DNA of 64,000 bases from Peptoclostridium acidaminophilum DSM 3953 (GTDB lineage: Bacteria > Bacillota > Clostridia > Peptostreptococcales > Peptostreptococcaceae): the NCBI RefSeq assembly GCF_000597865.1, contig NZ_CP007452.1, positions 2,177,183-2,241,182 on the forward strand, given 5' to 3'. Each line of letters begins with the position of its first letter. The stretch's first letter is position 1. A program made the position numbers and the translations under genes. Of this stretch, positions 8,361-52,998 are shown piece after piece. The notes beneath the pieces are model-generated. The model was not told the DNA's origin. It searched no databases and saw only the letters and a program-made list of their open reading frames with translations.

Positions 8361-10604
8361 CTACAAAATCTCTTTATTAAAATGTCCTCTTGTGTCTGTT
8401 TCCTTATTAAAGACAGCTTTATTCATTGAGCCATTTAATTTGCTTAAGGCCTCGTTAATGGTTTTCACAACCTGATCTTTTGATTCAACTGTGAAGTTTA
8501 ATCTGAATGCCTCGATTCCTTTTATGCTTTGCACCTCATCTAAAAGATTAAGCGTCTTCCCATTAAGGATAGTCGTTGTACAATCATCATGAGAAATGAT
8601 AGGGAAGGTTCCGTGCTCATCTTTTAACTCATGGCTCCTCGTTTTGCAAATACCGCACTGATTCATTTTTTTCAGCGGACAATATTTTGTAAACATCAAA
8701 GGAGCCTTGCCATACACAATCATTTCCAGTGCAGGATAGCCGTCATTTTCTTCATAATAGGCATTAATTAAATCTTCAATTTGTCTCTTATTCAATTCAT
8801 AAGATAAAGTTACTCGTTTCGCGCCTAATCTATATAATTCATAGCAGCTAGTAGAATTAACAACATTTAGAGAATAGTCCGTAACAAAAGGATTAGTTTT
8901 TCTGTAGTGGTAAATTCCGCCATATCCTCCGATTAACAGCTGCCCTTCTTTTTCCTTATAATCGTTCTGGTTTCTTCTAACCACGTTTTCAAAATAGATT
9001 TCCTTAATTCCACAGCTCATGCAAGCATCATACTGTTCCTTAGTAGTTACAGAGACCGTAAGATATGGTGTTTTGGGGGCAAAGCTTATTTTTTCTTTTG
9101 CATTCACAGCTTTGATTCTTTTCTTTTGGCTGTTAAGCTTTAAGTCATATAAGCCCTGTACAATATCTCTTCTTGCTGCATTTAGCAGTTTGGCTGGAAT
9201 AAATGCATTGCATTCCTTAAAATCTACATGATTAAGTTCGAATATAGTATCATTTAATCTTGAAAATTGCTTTATTACCTGTTCTTTTGTAGTTGGATTA
9301 TTAATTGCTTCGCCTAGTATTTCCTCGCTTTCATATAAATAATTAAAGCCTAAGCCTTCCGCATCTATGATAAGCTTTGAATCTGGATATGCATACACTC
9401 TAATATCTAGGTTAAAGCGTTTAAATTCTTTTTCCAGTGATGACTCTAACTCTTTGTAATAGAAATTATCCTTCGTTATATATACTAAATCACCCTTAGA
9501 TATCTTTTCTTTGATTTTGATATAGCAGACATCATCTGCTTTGTTGATTAAATTGCCAGCTTTATCGTACAGTTTTACAACAGTTAAAACAACATCTTCA
9601 TTGTTATGACTTATTCTGATTATATCGTTTTGATTTAAAGGACGTGTAAGAGTTATTTCATACATGTCTTTAACAATCTTGCTGATTCTACCAATTTCAT
9701 AACCAGCATTATTAGGTCTTAAGGTGTTTGTAATATCTTTTATATCTTCGTGAAACACATATCCCTTAGTAAAGGTTCTATTGAATGTTTTGCTCAGATT
9801 TTCTTTATCTTCTTCGGTTATTTTGTTATCTAAGGCCCTGCGATATTTTGATACAGCATTAGCAACATACGCAGGCTCTTTCATTCGACCTTCTATTTTT
9901 AAAGAATCAATTTCTTTTAAATCATTGATATAATCGATTGTGTTTAAGTCCTTAGTAGATAGAATATAGTTTTTCCCTAAAGATGTATCTGTTGTCTTAT
10001 CAATTAGTTCATACTCCTTACGGCATGAACCAACACATCTTCCGCGATTTCCGCTTCGATAGCCGATTAATCCAGACATCAGACAGTTTCCAGAATAAGA
10101 TACACATAGAGCGCCGTGAACAAAAATTTCTAAAGGTATTTTAGCTATTCTTTTTATCTCTTTTACTTTTTCAATCTCAACCTCACGGGACAGAACGACT
10201 CTTTTAGCACCAAGTTCTTTAAATAATAAAGTTCCGTCTAAATCGTCTATTCCCATTTGAGTTGAACAATGTGCTTCCATATCAAGAAAGTTATTAACTA
10301 TATAATCGAAAGCAGCCAGATCCTGGACGATAATTCCATCGACACCGATTTCATTTAATTCGTCCACCTGCTCTTTCATCTCTTCAACTTCGTTTTCGAA
10401 AACGATGGTATTCATTGTAACATAGATTTTGACATTCCTCAGGTGCGCATACGTAACAGCCTCTTTTAACGATTCTAAATCAAAATTAGATGAGTATGCA
10501 CGTGCGCCAAATTTTTGAGTTCCTAAGTATATGGCATCACACCCATTGGAAATTGCCGCTTTTAAAGCTTCCATGCTTCCTGCTGGAGCTAATAATTCAG
10601 TCAT
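8361..10604 (-). CDS. U32 family peptidase-like protein (RlhA/YdcP type, large form)
   Basis: About 747 residues. The U32 signature EIFVHGALCVSYSGNCLMS lies near residue 165, followed by further cysteines (GRCVGSCRKEY). A DUF3656-type middle region and a second Cys set near the C-terminus (CPLKKMNQCGICKTRS) follow. E. coli RlhA of this family hydroxylates C2501 of 23S rRNA at the peptidyl-transferase centre; others process proteins or act in ubiquinone synthesis, so the rRNA role is an inference. The ATG at 10604 has GGAGGG 5 bases upstream and lies 21 bases after the ABC-F stop, so the pair is co-transcribed. Base composition looks more AT-rich than the flanks. It ends four bases from a tRNA-Cys remnant. 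Confidence 0.85.
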   Translation of the reverse strand: MTELLAPAGSMEALKAAISNGCDAIYLGTQKFGARAYSSNFDLESLKEAVTYAHLRNVKIYVTMNTIVFENEVEEMKEQVDELNEIGVDGIIVQDLAAFDYIVNNFLDMEAHCSTQMGIDDLDGTLLFKELGAKRVVLSREVEIEKVKEIKRIAKIPLEIFVHGALCVSYSGNCLMSGLIGYRSGNRGRCVGSCRKEYELIDKTTDTSLGKNYILSTKDLNTIDYINDLKEIDSLKIEGRMKEPAYVANAVSKYRRALDNKITEEDKENLSKTFNRTFTKGYVFHEDIKDITNTLRPNNAGYEIGRISKIVKDMYEITLTRPLNQNDIIRISHNNEDVVLTVVKLYDKAGNLINKADDVCYIKIKEKISKGDLVYITKDNFYYKELESSLEKEFKRFNLDIRVYAYPDSKLIIDAEGLGFNYLYESEEILGEAINNPTTKEQVIKQFSRLNDTIFELNHVDFKECNAFIPAKLLNAARRDIVQGLYDLKLNSQKKRIKAVNAKEKISFAPKTPYLTVSVTTKEQYDACMSCGIKEIYFENVVRRNQNDYKEKEGQLLIGGYGGIYHYRKTNPFVTDYSLNVVNSTSCYELYRLGAKRVTLSYELNKRQIEDLINAYYEENDGYPALEMIVYGKAPLMFTKYCPLKKMNQCGICKTRSHELKDEHGTFPIISHDDCTTTILNGKTLNLLDEVQSIKGIEAFRLNFTVESKDQVVKTINEALSKLNGSMNKAVFNKETDTRGHFNKEIL

Positions 10605-19460: not shown

Positions 19461-20738
19461 CTATTTTATTACTGTCATGCCGCCCATGTATGGCTGAAGT
19501 GCAACAGGAATATTTACAGAGCCGTCTGCATTCAGGTTGTTCTCCAGGAAGGCTATAAGCATTCTTGGCGGCGCAACCACTGTATTGTTTAGTGTATGTG
19601 CGAAATATTTGCTGTTTTCGCCGTTGACACGTATTTTCAGACGACGAGCCTGCGCATCGCCCAGGTTGGAGCAGCTTCCAACTTCGAAGTATTTTTGCTG
19701 TCTTGGAGACCAGGCTTCTACGTCAACCGATTTGACTTTAAGGTCTGCCAGATCGCCAGAACAGCACTCTAGTGTTCTTACAGGTATATCAAGCGTGCGG
19801 AAGAAGTCCACAGTGTTTTGCCACAGCTTGTCATACCACATCATGCTGTCTTCAGGCTTGCACACAACTATCATTTCCTGCTTCTCGAACTGGTGTATTC
19901 TGTAAACGCCTCTCTCTTCTATGCCGTGGGCTCCTTTTTCCTTTCTAAAGCAAGGAGAATAGCTAGTGAGTGTATGAGGCAGAGATTCTTCAGGCAGTAT
20001 TGTATCGATGAATTTGCCTATCATCGAGTGTTCGCTTGTTCCTATCAGATAAAGATCTTCACCTTCAATTTTGTACATCATGGCATCCATTTCTGCAAAA
20101 CTCATAACTCCTGTTACAACTTCGCTGCGAATCATGTACGGCGGTATGCAGTATGTAAAGCCGCGATTTATCATAAAGTCTCTGGCATATGAAATGACTG
20201 CAGAATGAAGCCTTGCTATGTCTCCCATAAGGTAATAGAAGCCATTGCCTGCAACCTTCCTAGCGCTTTCCAAATCGATACCGCTTAATTTTTCCATGAT
20301 TTGAATGTGATATGGCACTTCAAAATCAGGTACAGCAGGCTCTCCATAGCGAGCCACTTCCACATTCTCGCTGTCGTCCTTGCCTATGGGAACACTTGAA
20401 TCAATTATGTTTGGAATAGTCATCATTATTTGCTTTATTTTTTCTTCAAGCTCATTTTCTTTTGTTTCCAATTCAGCCAGGCGCTCTGATTCCGCAGTAA
20501 CCTTTTTCTTTAATTCTTCTGCTTCTTCCTTTTTGCCCTGAGCCATTAGTCCGCCGATTTGCTTTGAAAGCTTATTTCTATCGGCTCTTAGATCGTCTGC
20601 CTCCTGCTTTGAATTCCTGAATTCAGCATCTAAAGCTATTACTTCATCCACCATACCAAGCTTATTTTCCTGAAACTTTTTTTTCATGTTTTCCTTAACA
20701 ATTTCAGGATTTTCCCTTACAAATTTAATATCCAGCAT
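19461..20738 (-). CDS. serS: Seryl-tRNA synthetase
   Basis: 425 residues, class II synthetase. An N-terminal antiparallel coiled-coil arm (about 25-110) contacts the long variable arm of tRNA-Ser. Motif 2 is CFRKEKGAHGIEERGVYRIHQFEKQE (positions about 264-289) and motif 3 is NGENSKYFAHTLNNT followed by PPRMLIAFLENN. It charges tRNA-Ser, and tRNA-Sec in selenium users. GGGGGT lies about 7 bases before the ATG. Expression should depend on serine charging through the T-box leader. Confidence 0.97.
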   Translation of the reverse strand: MLDIKFVRENPEIVKENMKKKFQENKLGMVDEVIALDAEFRNSKQEADDLRADRNKLSKQIGGLMAQGKKEEAEELKKKVTAESERLAELETKENELEEKIKQIMMTIPNIIDSSVPIGKDDSENVEVARYGEPAVPDFEVPYHIQIMEKLSGIDLESARKVAGNGFYYLMGDIARLHSAVISYARDFMINRGFTYCIPPYMIRSEVVTGVMSFAEMDAMMYKIEGEDLYLIGTSEHSMIGKFIDTILPEESLPHTLTSYSPCFRKEKGAHGIEERGVYRIHQFEKQEMIVVCKPEDSMMWYDKLWQNTVDFFRTLDIPVRTLECCSGDLADLKVKSVDVEAWSPRQQKYFEVGSCSNLGDAQARRLKIRVNGENSKYFAHTLNNTVVAPPRMLIAFLENNLNADGSVNIPVALQPYMGGMTVIK

Positions 20739-21038
20739 ATTGTTACCCCCTATATATAACTATTATTTTTTACTAAAAAACAAAAACTCCCGCCCCACGC
20801 ATATATAAATATACCCATGGGACGGAAGTAATATCCGCGTTGCCACCCAAATTGCTGATCTTTAATAGAAATCAGCCACTCGTCAACAGTAAGATAAAGG
20901 ATACCAGCCTTTCGGTTCATCACCGACAGCTCCAAAAGTGGAAAGATTTAACCTTTCACCGATTCTCACCAACCATCGGCTCTCTTGAGAAATTTATAAA
21001 TCGCAGCTTTTGTAATCACCATTTTCAATATGTTATTA
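20739..21038 (-). promoter_or_regulatory. T-box riboswitch leader of serS
   Basis: The T-box core AATTTGGGTGGCAACGCGG lies at 20853-20835. Stem I has the hallmark AGAGAGCCGATGG-TTGGTGAGAATCGG (20976-20950 region). A terminator follows: CTTCCGTCCCA (20828-20818) pairs with TGGGGCGGGAG (20797-20787) ahead of a T run. The 5' part of the terminator arm can instead pair with the T-box bulge region, as in the family. A serine codon AGC (20931-20929) lies in the stem I specifier area, but I could not fold it exactly. Uncharged tRNA-Ser should favour read-through. This leader fills the 440-base gap to the dapB-like gene together with its promoter. Confidence 0.9.
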
Positions 21039-21179: not shown

Positions 21180-21947
21180 TTAATATACAGGTCTGTGCTT
21201 GGAAAACATCTCCGCTACTATGTTCTCCATAGAATAAATTCCTTTGGGCTGATCCCTTAAAAAGATCGCTGCAAATATCGCTCCCTGTCCGAATGCCGCC
21301 CTGCTTATGCTGTCATGCGTAAGTCGTATTGTCTGGTAGGGCATTCCGAATATGACCTCGTGGTGCCCTACAATACCTCCTACTCGAATTGAATTAACTC
21401 GCTCCTGCTCGTCCAGCCCAAGTACATTTGCGATTTTGCGGGCAGTTCCAGACACTTCCCTTTTGCCTTTGAAGTGCTCCTCGACAATCTCTATGTCTGC
21501 ATGCGGAGCTATCTTTTGTATTATCTGCGACGCCACGAGCAATATGTTTATTCCCAAAGTTATATTTGGCGAGTGCAAAACGGCAACCTTGTCCGCAAGC
21601 GAATAAAGCAGCTTCTGGTCTTCAGACTCATACTTGGATACTGCCGAAATTATCCTTATGCCCGCGTCCGCAGCTCCCTTGTAGTATTGCACTCCTGACG
21701 AGTCCGAAAAATCAATTATTACATCAACCTGCTTTTCTTTGAAAAAGTCGCCTGTAATCTCTTCAATCGAAAAAATCTCACCGCAGTCCTTTTCATAGCC
21801 CAGCAGCCTGCTTGCATATTTATGAATATCACTTTTGCCTTTTCTTACTACCCACACCAGATTGAATCTCTCATCCTTTATGAACTCGTTTACAACCAGC
21901 TTTCCTGTTTGTCCAAATCCAAAAACTCCTATCTTAATTCTGCTCAT
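21180..21947 (-). CDS. 4-hydroxy-tetrahydrodipicolinate reductase-like protein (DapB family)
   Basis: 255 residues. A Rossmann NAD(P) site GVFGFGQTGKLV (about 6) and a DapB-type C-terminal domain (RVGGIVGHHEVIF, about 205) are present. The catalytic stretch reads EEHFKGKREVSGTA (about 147), against the usual E-x-HH-x-x-K-x-DAPSGTA. The proton-donor His and the Lys are kept, but the second His is Phe and the DAP triplet is replaced and one residue shorter. It may still be DapB of lysine/dipicolinate synthesis, or a family member with a shifted substrate. No other lysine gene is near. GGGGAGG lies 6 bases before the ATG at 21947. Confidence 0.8.
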   Translation of the reverse strand: MSRIKIGVFGFGQTGKLVVNEFIKDERFNLVWVVRKGKSDIHKYASRLLGYEKDCGEIFSIEEITGDFFKEKQVDVIIDFSDSSGVQYYKGAADAGIRIISAVSKYESEDQKLLYSLADKVAVLHSPNITLGINILLVASQIIQKIAPHADIEIVEEHFKGKREVSGTARKIANVLGLDEQERVNSIRVGGIVGHHEVIFGMPYQTIRLTHDSISRAAFGQGAIFAAIFLRDQPKGIYSMENIVAEMFSKHRPVY

Positions 21948-22020
21948 AAAATTCCTCCCCTTATATTTCATTACCCCTATAAACGTTATAATATTCATAC
22001 TGCCATAATATTCATGCATA

Positions 22021-22090
22021 GTTTCAAACAGAAATTTTCACCCCAGTTATCGGGTTCCCCGCTTCCACAATGTGAAACTCGGCGATAGCC
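22021..22090 (-). ncRNA. Candidate structured leader RNA upstream of the dapB-like gene
   Basis: On the minus strand this 70-base GC-rich island sits in an AT-rich 303-base gap, 74 bases before the gene. Two crossing helices can be drawn. GCTATCG (22088-22082) pairs with CGATAAC (22053-22047) with one mismatch, and AGTTTCA (22079-22073) pairs with TGAAACT (22026-22020). The order makes a pseudoknot. Between them lie GCGGGGAACCC and GGGGTGAAA, which recall the 5' half of the ydaO/c-di-AMP riboswitch, but the 3' half of that riboswitch is missing. Upstream, TTGCAT and TAATAA could form the promoter. The remaining bases to 22250 show nothing clear. Confidence 0.4.
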
Positions 22091-22250
22091 ATTCATTTTA
22101 TTTATTATATTATAAAAAAATGTAATGCAAAAGTTTTTTTAATCTGCCACTCCATTCGCAAAAACAAAAATAGGGAGAAGATGAATTATGTCACCTTGTC
22201 CCTTTTTGAAACAGCTTAGATCTACTCTAGCATGTTGGCGTCATTCCGTT

Positions 22251-22592
22251 TTATGCTTTTTTGACAAATTCTGATTTGAGTTTCATCTCCCCGAAGCCGT
22301 CAATCTTGCATTCGATGTTATGGTCTCCGTCAACCAGTCGTATGCTTTTTACCTTCGTGCCTATTTTCAGGGAAGACGAGCTGCCTTTTACTTTAAGGTC
22401 CTTAATTATAGTCACGGAATCTCCATCGCTCAGGATATTTCCGTTGGCATCTTTTACTACTTTTTCATCTGAGCCTGTTTCAGCTTCCGATTCAAGAGTC
22501 CACTCATGGCCACATTCCGGACACACCAGAAGAGTTCCATCCTCGTAGGTATATTCCGAATTGCATTTCGGACAATTTGGCAATTTTTCCAT
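22251..22592 (-). CDS. PhnA/YjdM family zinc-ribbon protein
   Basis: 113 residues. An N-terminal zinc ribbon ([22 protein letters not shown], Cys at 7, 10, 24 and 27) is followed by the PhnA C-terminal domain with [15 protein letters not shown] and KVKGSS. The family was named from an alkylphosphonate operon, but its molecular function is not established and no phosphonate genes are near. GGAGG lies about 8 bases before the ATG. It has its own promoter-like sequence upstream (TTGTTA-17-TAGTAT), followed by the decamer ATGCATATGC (22635-22626). Confidence 0.88.
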
Positions 22593-50545: not shown

Positions 50546-50998
50546 CTATTTGTCAGTTTCCTTAATCTCTACCTTGAGCTTGGCAACAACGTCTTGATGC
50601 AGCTTTATCTCTACGAACTTTGCGCCAAGCACCTTTATCGGTTCGTCCATAAGTATTTTCCTCTTGTCTACATCAATTCCATGCTTTTTCTTGAGGCTTT
50701 CAGCGATATCCTTTGAAGTTATAGAGCCGAAAAGCCTTCCGCCTTCCCCAGCCTTAGAAAACAGAGTTATAGTTATCTCCTCCATTGACTTGGCAAGCGC
50801 CTTAGCCGCCTCATGTTCTTTTTCCTCTTTTATCTTTTGGGCAGTCTTTTGCTCGCTCAGCACCTTCAGATTCCCGTCGGAAGCCTCTTTTGCAGCGCCT
50901 TTTGGAAAGAGGAAGTTCCTCGCATAGCCGTCGCTTACATTTATTACGTCTCCTTTTTTGCCTGTTCCCTTCAAATCCTTAAGCAGGATAACCTTCAT
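50546..50998 (-). CDS. rplI: 50S ribosomal protein L9
   Basis: 150 residues. [34 protein letters not shown] is the L9 signature (positions 1-34), with the long connecting helix (about 40-75) and C-terminal domain. Its ATG overlaps the gdpP stop (TAATG), with GGGAGG upstream, so the pair is coupled. Confidence 0.97.
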
Positions 50999-52998
50999 TA
51001 TAAATCTACCTCCCTTAGATATTCTCGTATTATATGCTCTAGTCTGGATTTTACCTCGTCAATTTCAGAGTCTGTTATCTGGGCTCCCGCGACATCCAGG
51101 TGGCCGCCTCCGCCCATTTTTTCCAATATTACCTGCACATTCACCTCACCCATTGAACGCGCACTTACATATATAACGCCGTCCGTGTCCTGGCCGAGGA
51201 CAAATGACGCCTTTATTCCCTTTATGTTTAGCAGCTCGTCAGCTCCTTGCGCTATAACAAGCTGCAGGCTGTCCGTATTTTCAGGACATACCGACATGGC
51301 TATTATCTTGTCTAGTATGACTGCGTTTTTGATGACCTCCGCCTTTCCAAAGAACGTTTCCATATCTCCCTGGAACAGCCTCTTTACAGCAGCCGTATCG
51401 GCTCCCATCTTCTTGAGCACGGCCGCTGCTTCAAAGGTTCTCACGCCCGTCCTGAAGGTGAAATTCTTAGTGTCAAGAGTTATTCCCGCAAGCAGCGCCT
51501 CGGATTCAAACTTTGAAATATATGGCTTTTCTGAAATGTACTGTATCAGCTCGGTTACCATCTCGCTTGCTGAAGATGCGTATGTTTCGTGATATGAAAG
51601 CACCGCATTCTCTATGAACTCAACGCCCCTTCTGTGGTGATCTATCACTACAACCCTATCGCAAATGTCGAGCAGCTCCTTGCACTCTGTGAAGTTTGGC
51701 CTGTGGGTGTCTACAACTATGAGCAGCGTGTCGGAGTGTGCGCTGCGCATTGCCTCGTCTTTTTTGAGGAATACATTCTTGTAGTCACCTGAAGCGCCTA
51801 TGCTTTTTACAAGCACGTCAATCGACGGATTGGACTCCTGAAGCACTATGTTGGATTCTTTCCCCAGATGGCTGCACATGCTGTGAACTCCCAGCGCGGC
51901 TCCCATGGAATCCAGGTCCGGATGTCTGTGCCCCATTATGAGAACATTTTTGCTGTCATTTATCAGGTCTCTGAGGGCATACGCTATAAGTCTTGCCTTG
52001 ACCTTTGTCTTCTTTTCTATACCCTTTGACCTTCCGCCATAAAACGTCGACTTGTCTTTTCGTTTTATTACAGCCTGATCTCCGCCTCTTCCCTGTGCCA
52101 GGTCAAGGGCACTTTCCGCATACTCAAGGCTGTTTAGCAAAGTGCTGCCCCAAGTGCCTATTCCTATGCTGAGCGTTATTGGAAGCGAATTTCCATGGTT
52201 TATCTCCCTTATCTCATCAAGCACGGCAAACTTTTGCTTTTCCAAGCCTTCGAGTATCAAGTTATCCATAAACAAAATATAACGGTCGCTCCTTGTCTTT
52301 TGAAGGGCCGCTCCTATTCCGTCCGCCCAGCCCTTGAGCGTTCTTTCTACATCGGCTACAAGCAGCGGCCGCATGTCAGAGCCTGCGCTCTCAAGCACCT
52401 CGTCAAAGCTGTCTACCTGTATTATTCCAAACACCGGCTTTTCCTCGTAATACCTCTTTGAAAGGCTAAGCAGCCTGGTGTTTTCTACGAAATAAGCCAT
52501 TATCAGGTACTTGACCTCTCCCTTGTTGTCTATCTTGACAATGTTGTATGTGACGTTGAAATTCCTATCATCCAGCGCCACGGTTGTATAGAGCTCATTT
52601 TTTTCATTCAGCGCCCTTTTGAGGTTAAGGCTTGGTATTATCTCTTCAATATTTTTCCCGAGCAGCTCCTCTTTTTTGAGCATGTCCGAAAACTTGTTGT
52701 TGTACCAGTTTATGCTGCCGTCAATTTCGAGTATGCAAAAAGGTATGGGCAGATTGAGCATCGCATTTTTAACAGTCTCATCAATGTCAGCCGAAAGGCT
52801 TTCAATATATTTTGTCCACTGTCTCGTTCTGGCATCCGACGTCTTCCTGTTGTGGTTTAAAAGATATGCTATTACCAGTAGCCACAATGCACCCAAAATC
52901 CAATTGTAGAAAAGGACTGTGACCGCAAGCAGAAGTATTATTGCCATATATGTGTTTTGTTCAGGAAACCAAAACTTAAAATTCATTTTAGTTTTCAT
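50998..52998 (-). CDS. gdpP: Cyclic di-AMP phosphodiesterase GdpP
   Basis: 666 residues. Two membrane helices (about 17-45), a PAS-like domain (about 75-170), a degenerate GGDEF domain (about 175-305), DHH domain ([15 protein letters not shown] about 355, DTHRP about 427, VIDHHRRG about 450) and DHHA1 ([11 protein letters not shown] about 637). It hydrolyses c-di-AMP to pApA, setting turgor and wall homeostasis. AGGAGG lies about 11 bases before the ATG. First gene of gdpP-rplI-dnaB after DUF2232. Confidence 0.96.

Follow-up and report, generated by a model that had tools for sequence, protein, structure and literature searches.

The stand-alone dapB-like gene of Peptoclostridium acidaminophilum DSM 3953 is preceded by a short GC-rich island, and the question raised by this locus is what kind of leader RNA the island represents. 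An earlier note on the window—the whole stretch of 64,000 nucleotides analyzed here—had described the island as a compact pseudoknot and proposed either a new small riboswitch class or a reduced sensor of c-di-AMP. Our analysis points, with high confidence, to another answer: a deletion cut a c-di-AMP riboswitch in half, and the dapB-like gene was most likely freed from c-di-AMP control.

The dapB-like gene (21180–21947, minus strand) encoded a protein of 255 aa with the Pfam domains DapB_N and DapB_C and a TIGR00036 score of 126.8 bits (cut-off 122). It was the second copy in the genome: a paralogue with 31% identity was found at G000:C1:1592690-1593409, and the other dapB was located in an apparent asd-dapA-dapB-dapD cluster (names assigned by eye from the translations). 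The island belonged to the minus strand as well, was flanked by the dapB-like gene and a yjdM/phnA-like gene (22251–22592), and had a G+C content of 53% over positions 22037–22094. A promoter-like sequence TTTGCA-16-TATAAT, matching the consensus at 10 of 12 positions, was found by a consensus scan at 22104–22131 (minus strand), with the start of transcription expected at approximately the first base of the island. On both strands of the region 21940–22260, four promoter-like sites were identified versus 1.4 expected in shuffled sequences, all by consensus match only. The gdpP gene, reported previously in the same window, was indeed encoded there (50998–52998, minus strand); GdpP is a c-di-AMP phosphodiesterase. 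Rfam search of the window also revealed a T-box leader (RF00230, 96 bits; 20815–21025, minus strand) preceding serS (19461–20738), while no match of the Na+ riboswitch was found in the window.

The covariance model of the complete c-di-AMP riboswitch (ydaO/yuaA, RF00379), the search suggested in the earlier note, gave no match in the window at the gathering score and none in 21850–22250 up to an E-value of 10. The only Rfam matches in this region up to this E-value were SL2 and Bacilli-1, both far under their gathering scores. Models of the 5′ half of the aptamer, in contrast, did recognize the island. Model R1, built from 20 intact 5′ halves including that of the congener (G001, a Peptoclostridium MAG), scored 39.7 bits (E-value 2.5e-9), its one further match in the window having 10 bits and an E-value of 1.7. 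For model R2, which comprised 16 rows without the congener or Sporomusa and with the kamA riboswitch of the own genome, the island was the sole match across the 64 kb (30 bits, E-value 1.1e-6). The likeness to the first half of ydaO that had been noticed from the letters is thus homology, above chance with both models.

Individual alignment columns led to the same picture. At the columns invariant in eight intact sequences, the window agreed in 19 of 19 cases; at the columns common to at least seven of the eight, it agreed in 24 of 27, with three changes. The P2 hairpin, UUUCAC-AUU-GUGGAA with one G-U pair, was retained at 22063–22077 (minus strand). Over nine sequences, 90.2% of its cells were paired, and four of the six pairs had changed on both sides; this level of pairing was reached by 1 of 500 shuffles and the number of pair types by 179 of 500. 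Judged from the half-aptamer models and the congener alignment, the island (22037–22094, minus strand) is a remnant, by descent, of the 5′ half of a c-di-AMP riboswitch and is homologous to it rather than being a new class.

The congener provided the intact counterpart. In G001 (L011/L021), a complete RF00379 match of 98.1 bits was found before the orthologous dapB-like gene, the product of which was 84% identical to that of our strain, and the gene order—yjdM-like, leader, dapB-like—was common to both genomes. BLAST of the leader in 61 genomes revealed two pieces of G001, 142 nt apart there and adjacent in the window; the other matches were 28 nt in G021 (E-value 6e-5) and 34 nt on another contig of G001 (E-value 3e-4). 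At the junction (22036–22037, minus strand) GGGGTGAA (22044–22037) abuts AATTTCTG (22036–22029), and the 142 nt of G001 are missing. The identity between the window and G001 was 50/58 (86%) for the 5′ half, 75/89 (84%) for the post-junction leader, and 28/36 for positions 22095–22130. As defined by the G001 alignment, the post-junction leader (21948–22036, minus strand) contained the Shine-Dalgarno-like sequence GGGGAGG (21954–21960) and the arm TGAAACT; its counterpart in G001 was situated downstream of the complete riboswitch and of a terminator-like site. Comparison of the junction with G001 by eye revealed neither exact microhomology nor a repeat explaining the deletion.

The missing block comprised, in G001, the 3′ half of the aptamer and the terminator-like site; the conserved 3′ half (CCGTCAGCTAAC ... 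GGCGT) was absent from the leader in the window, and the earlier remark that the second half of ydaO is lacking was correct. Both strands were kept in 5 of the 26 Rfam pairs (three of the P2 hairpin plus a 2-bp helix), and one or both strands were lost in the other 21. The lost pairings were P1, the 6-bp and 3-bp long-range pairings, and two later hairpins, whose partner strands belong to the 142-nt block. We failed to find a terminator-like site in 21940–22260 of the window. The block of G001 contained one, with five pairs, versus 0.4 expected; the fold of this stretch was no better than that of shuffled sequences (z −0.52). The same promoter scan applied to G001 (L021) detected no plus-strand promoter at the corresponding place.

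When 131 of the 142 nt of the missing block were compared with the own genome, one significant match was obtained, 82% over 49 nt, at the kamA riboswitch; two other matches had an E-value of 4.2. This riboswitch (G000:C2:74313-74450, minus strand; L009) was the sole RF00379 match of the genome and was intact; it was located upstream of kamA/ablA, encoding lysine 2,3-aminomutase (TIGR03820). Its stretch had no match in the plasmid collection, in which the records of the own genome are possibly absent.

The dapB-like protein had 60 related loci, of which 15—mostly the closest ones with enough upstream sequence—were scanned with Rfam; the scan left out L030 and L033, with little upstream sequence, and 43 more distant loci. 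RF00379 was found upstream of the gene in 7 of the 15: in the Peptoclostridium MAG, three Sporomusa, a Clostridiales MAG, a Clostridia MAG, and a MAG labelled Acholeplasmataceae, i.e., in 6 of the 14 scanned relatives other than the congener. The remaining eight loci, including four of Propionispira, were without it; the riboswitch is thus not universal upstream of this gene. Because it was intact in both the congener and Sporomusa, the simplest reading of these leaders is that the intact state was ancestral here, and a loss in the window is more probable than a gain in the other lineages. The genus was represented by one other Peptoclostridium genome among 71 genomes of the family; therefore, the deletion can neither be placed on the tree nor be checked in other strains.

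Several further elements were observed in the leaders of the relatives. In the Clostridia MAG (L035:2228-2436), the dapB-like gene was preceded by two riboswitches in tandem, first one for Na+ and then one for c-di-AMP, the arrangement known from PMC9337991. A stretch after the aptamer, GAGAAGGA ... GTCCTGCC ... TCCTTCTC, was common to Peptoclostridium and Sporomusa (L021, L022, L023, L025; positions ~2335–2410); by eye, it consisted of an outer stem round a variable inner part, and the outer stem was present in the fold of L021. Leaders of Sporomusa and Propionispira (L022, L023, L026, L028; ~2440–2495) shared a block of ~55 nt, CATGCAG..TGA.GG.., before the ribosome-binding site. This block also occurred without a c-di-AMP riboswitch and corresponded to no Rfam family at the gathering score.

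The following course of events would account for the present state of the locus. In the ancestor, as in G001 today, a promoter, a complete RF00379 aptamer, and a terminator would have preceded the stand-alone dapB-like gene. A single deletion of ~142 nt would have taken out the terminator and the 3′ half of the aptamer, and with the latter the complementary strands for P1 and the long-range pairings, leaving the promoter region, the 5′ half, the later leader, and the ribosome-binding site in place. Since the closing strands and the terminator are missing, the remnant would most probably neither bind c-di-AMP nor terminate transcription. c-di-AMP riboswitches are OFF switches, in which binding of the ligand leads to the termination of transcription (PMC5575661 and PMC9337991); expression of the dapB-like gene would therefore be expected to be independent of c-di-AMP. 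Driven by its own promoter, the gene would probably be expressed in an unregulated manner, at every c-di-AMP level. As for its role, our guess would be that lysine supplied by the stand-alone DapB goes into beta-lysine, which is an osmolyte.

The extent of divergence between the two Peptoclostridium genomes bears on the age of the deletion. At the four-fold sites of dapB, 38 of 86 were identical (Jukes–Cantor distance of ~1.0), and in the spacer upstream of the promoter 66 of 102 positions were identical (65%, versus 60 ± 4% for shuffled sequences). Zero changes at 19 columns correspond to at most ~0.16 substitutions per site of free evolution versus ~0.51 for the branch; this bound presupposes branches of equal length and near-saturated sites. 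The preservation of all 19 columns under free evolution since the split would be very unlikely. Since they were kept despite the saturation-like divergence of the four-fold sites and the spacer, either the deletion was recent, as is probable, or constraint on the retained half persists, two possibilities that a single genome cannot separate.

Other half-aptamers were searched for with R1 in 247 genomes, alongside an RF00379 search, with strict filters at which weak matches are lost. R1 had 80 matches (E-value up to 0.1), of which 64 were inside RF00379 matches and 11 were under 25 bits. Of the 69 matches of at least 25 bits, 64 were inside a full RF00379 match; the other five were the window, G113, G130, and two in G127 (26–27 bits), which were judged by eye to be due to chance. 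The candidate in G130 (G130:C33:36660-36707) was a second relic consisting of the 5′ half of a c-di-AMP riboswitch; its relatives G166 and G174 had RF00379 matches at a similar stretch, and the promoter side of the relic resembled that of their intact riboswitches. Downstream of the relic (G130:C33:36640-36720; L142), ORFs resembling Spo0E and TrkA/KtrA were found, and in G174 a sensor-kinase-like ORF followed (all by eye). In G113 (G113:C312:8548-9110; L141), an ORF resembling a cell-wall hydrolase (by eye) was preceded by a c-di-AMP riboswitch that was split in a hairpin loop: the two words closing the loop (at 9048 and 8611, minus strand) were separated by 436 nt, whereas the loop of intact relatives was short. 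Inverted words inside the insert suggest a small mobile element. With nearly all strong matches in the 247 genomes belonging to full riboswitches and the rest being the window, an insertion, a relic, and chance, the half-aptamer was rejected as a stand-alone class. The relics seem to arise independently. Among the literature matches listed, there was no paper on a truncated c-di-AMP riboswitch.

A still working, reduced sensor was the second of the explanations proposed earlier. In such a sensor, as we envisage it, the retained half would bind c-di-AMP alone or pair in trans with a second half-RNA and act on translation. The 19 kept invariant columns are in favor of this view, as are the identity of the 5′ half (86%), which does not fall below that of the remaining leader (84%), and the GdpP encoded in the genome. 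However, both strands remained in only 5 of the 26 Rfam pairs, the long-range partners and the terminator were gone, three changes were found among the 27 columns of at least 7/8 agreement, and the G130 relic had no shared new element (by eye). Because 21 of the 26 pairs were broken and the terminator-like site had disappeared, a disabled riboswitch is far likelier, and we consider a reduced sensor very improbable. According to the title of a structure paper, the aptamer is reportedly “internally pseudo-dimeric”. That one half of such a pseudo-two-fold-symmetric aptamer would be under selection, sensing c-di-AMP, perhaps when paired to a different RNA, and controlling the translation of dapB rather than termination, is very improbable. 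In the complete c-di-AMP riboswitch, two ligands occupy two pseudo-symmetric pockets (PMC5393176).

The pseudoknot itself was analyzed separately. The four arms were present and crossed as had been described, all on the minus strand: GCTATCG (22089–22083), AGTTTCA (22079–22073), CGATAAC (22052–22046), and TGAAACT (22026–22020), with GCGGGGAACCC and GGGGTGAAA between them. Of the two helices of the earlier note, helix B (AGTTTCA/TGAAACT) was a perfect 7-bp helix; helix A as given there had a C-A mismatch, its uninterrupted part being TATCG/CGATA (5 bp). Crossing Watson–Crick helices of 7 + 5 bp appeared in 29 of 2000 dinucleotide shuffles of the 75-nt island (in 1516 of 2000 when G-U pairs were allowed) and any 7-bp stem in 161 of 2000; comparable crossing helices (7 + 5, Watson–Crick) were present in 25 of the 853 non-overlapping 75-nt tiles of the window. 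Thus, the pseudoknot is no more than is expected by chance somewhere in 64 kb. Nested folding was also unremarkable in comparison with shuffled sequences (z −1.18 for 91 nt and −0.03 for 162 nt).

Covariation, the check that the earlier note had asked for, did not support helix A. In an alignment of nine sequences with gaps in the loop, 87.2% of its cells were paired (7 of 500 shuffles were as high), and its covariation score was reached by 3 of 500 shuffles. This signal was gone in 21 sequences: 60.2% of the cells were paired, the shuffle mean was 60.5, 299 of 500 shuffles were as high, and displacement by +3 columns gave a higher value (72.1%) than helix A proper. Helix A occupies the P1 nucleotides of the intact aptamer, and in the congener arm B-3′ is located past the riboswitch. 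Among the six intact leaders with correct anchoring, none had a perfect partner for helix B, and two (G001 and S. ovata) had a one-mismatch partner; the row of L034, anchored on wrong bases, was excluded from this comparison. The distance between the two arms of helix B is 46 nt in the window versus 191 nt in G001 and 226 nt in S. ovata. The pseudoknot was rejected on the basis of the shuffles, the window tiling, the pair counts, and the origin of arm B-3′ beyond the lost block.

It is conceivable that a new structure of the leader, helix B with a nested stem, arose through the deletion and now tunes the expression of dapB. The 75-nt island folded alone did form helix B, with a mean pair probability of 0.86, and a C-to-T difference in P2 converted the one-mismatch arm of G001 into the perfect 7-bp helix of the window. 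The 5′ strand of the P2 hairpin also belongs to helix B. However, the minimum-energy structure of the island folded with its flanks contained P2 instead of helix B. The z-values of both folds, the frequency of 7-bp stems in shuffled islands, and the occurrence in one genome only are also against this explanation, which has a very low probability.

An assembly error, or a change in a single culture, would imply an uncut riboswitch in the species itself. Comparison with a single assembly leaves some room for this explanation, but the genome consisted of 2 contigs with a completeness of 99.96%, and no repeat was seen by eye at the breakpoints; assemblies usually collapse at repeats. We regard such an artifact as highly unlikely. 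Finally, a new small pseudoknot riboswitch class unrelated to ydaO merits almost no credence, since, in spite of the crossing arms and the pairing of helix A in nine sequences, the clear homology to RF00379 contradicts an independent origin, helix A derives from P1 and lacked covariation in 21 sequences, the arms of helix B are far apart in G001 with arm B-3′ beyond the riboswitch, and no stand-alone unit recurred among the half-model matches of at least 25 bits in the 247 genomes, while similar helices occurred in other tiles of the window.

The halving of a c-di-AMP riboswitch by deletion remains our preferred explanation, and the locus would then represent a case of riboswitch loss under way, in which the neighbour is intact, the breakpoint clean, and the remnant conserved, while riboswitches are mostly catalogued in the intact state. 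Deletion of the closure of the sensor together with the terminator would be a cheap exit of a gene from the regulon of a second messenger. The island also calls for caution, as the words of a half-aptamer in a leader can mimic a new small riboswitch. A riboswitch cut in this way escapes the full RF00379 model even at an E-value of 10 and was revealed here by the congener and the half-aptamer models.

The closest known systems include the tandem Na+-I/c-di-AMP riboswitches before dapB, which is described as their target in PMC9337991. The window shares with them the same kind of target gene and the same second aptamer; it differs from them in having no match of the Na+ riboswitch and in the incompleteness of its c-di-AMP aptamer. 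Compared with the RF00379 aptamer in general, the window keeps the P2 hairpin and the words GCCGA, GCGGGGAACCC, and GGGGTGAA, and its half is located upstream of a gene type reported to be under c-di-AMP riboswitch control (PMC9337991); what it lacks is the terminator, the 3′ half, and the strands complementary to its own in P1 and in the two long-range pairings. The G130 relic resembles the window in that the promoter side and the 5′ half were kept and the 3′ half was lost; it differs in an earlier breakpoint, with GGGGTGAA also gone, and no shared partner helix was seen by eye. The intact riboswitches before dapB in G001 and Sporomusa (L022, L023, L025) matched all 134 model positions, unlike the incomplete one of the window, and in these Sporomusa loci the orthologous gene occupies the same place. 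In G001, whose orthologous gene likewise occupies the same place, the promoter side and the later part of the leader also correspond to those of the window, the difference being its 142 extra nucleotides.
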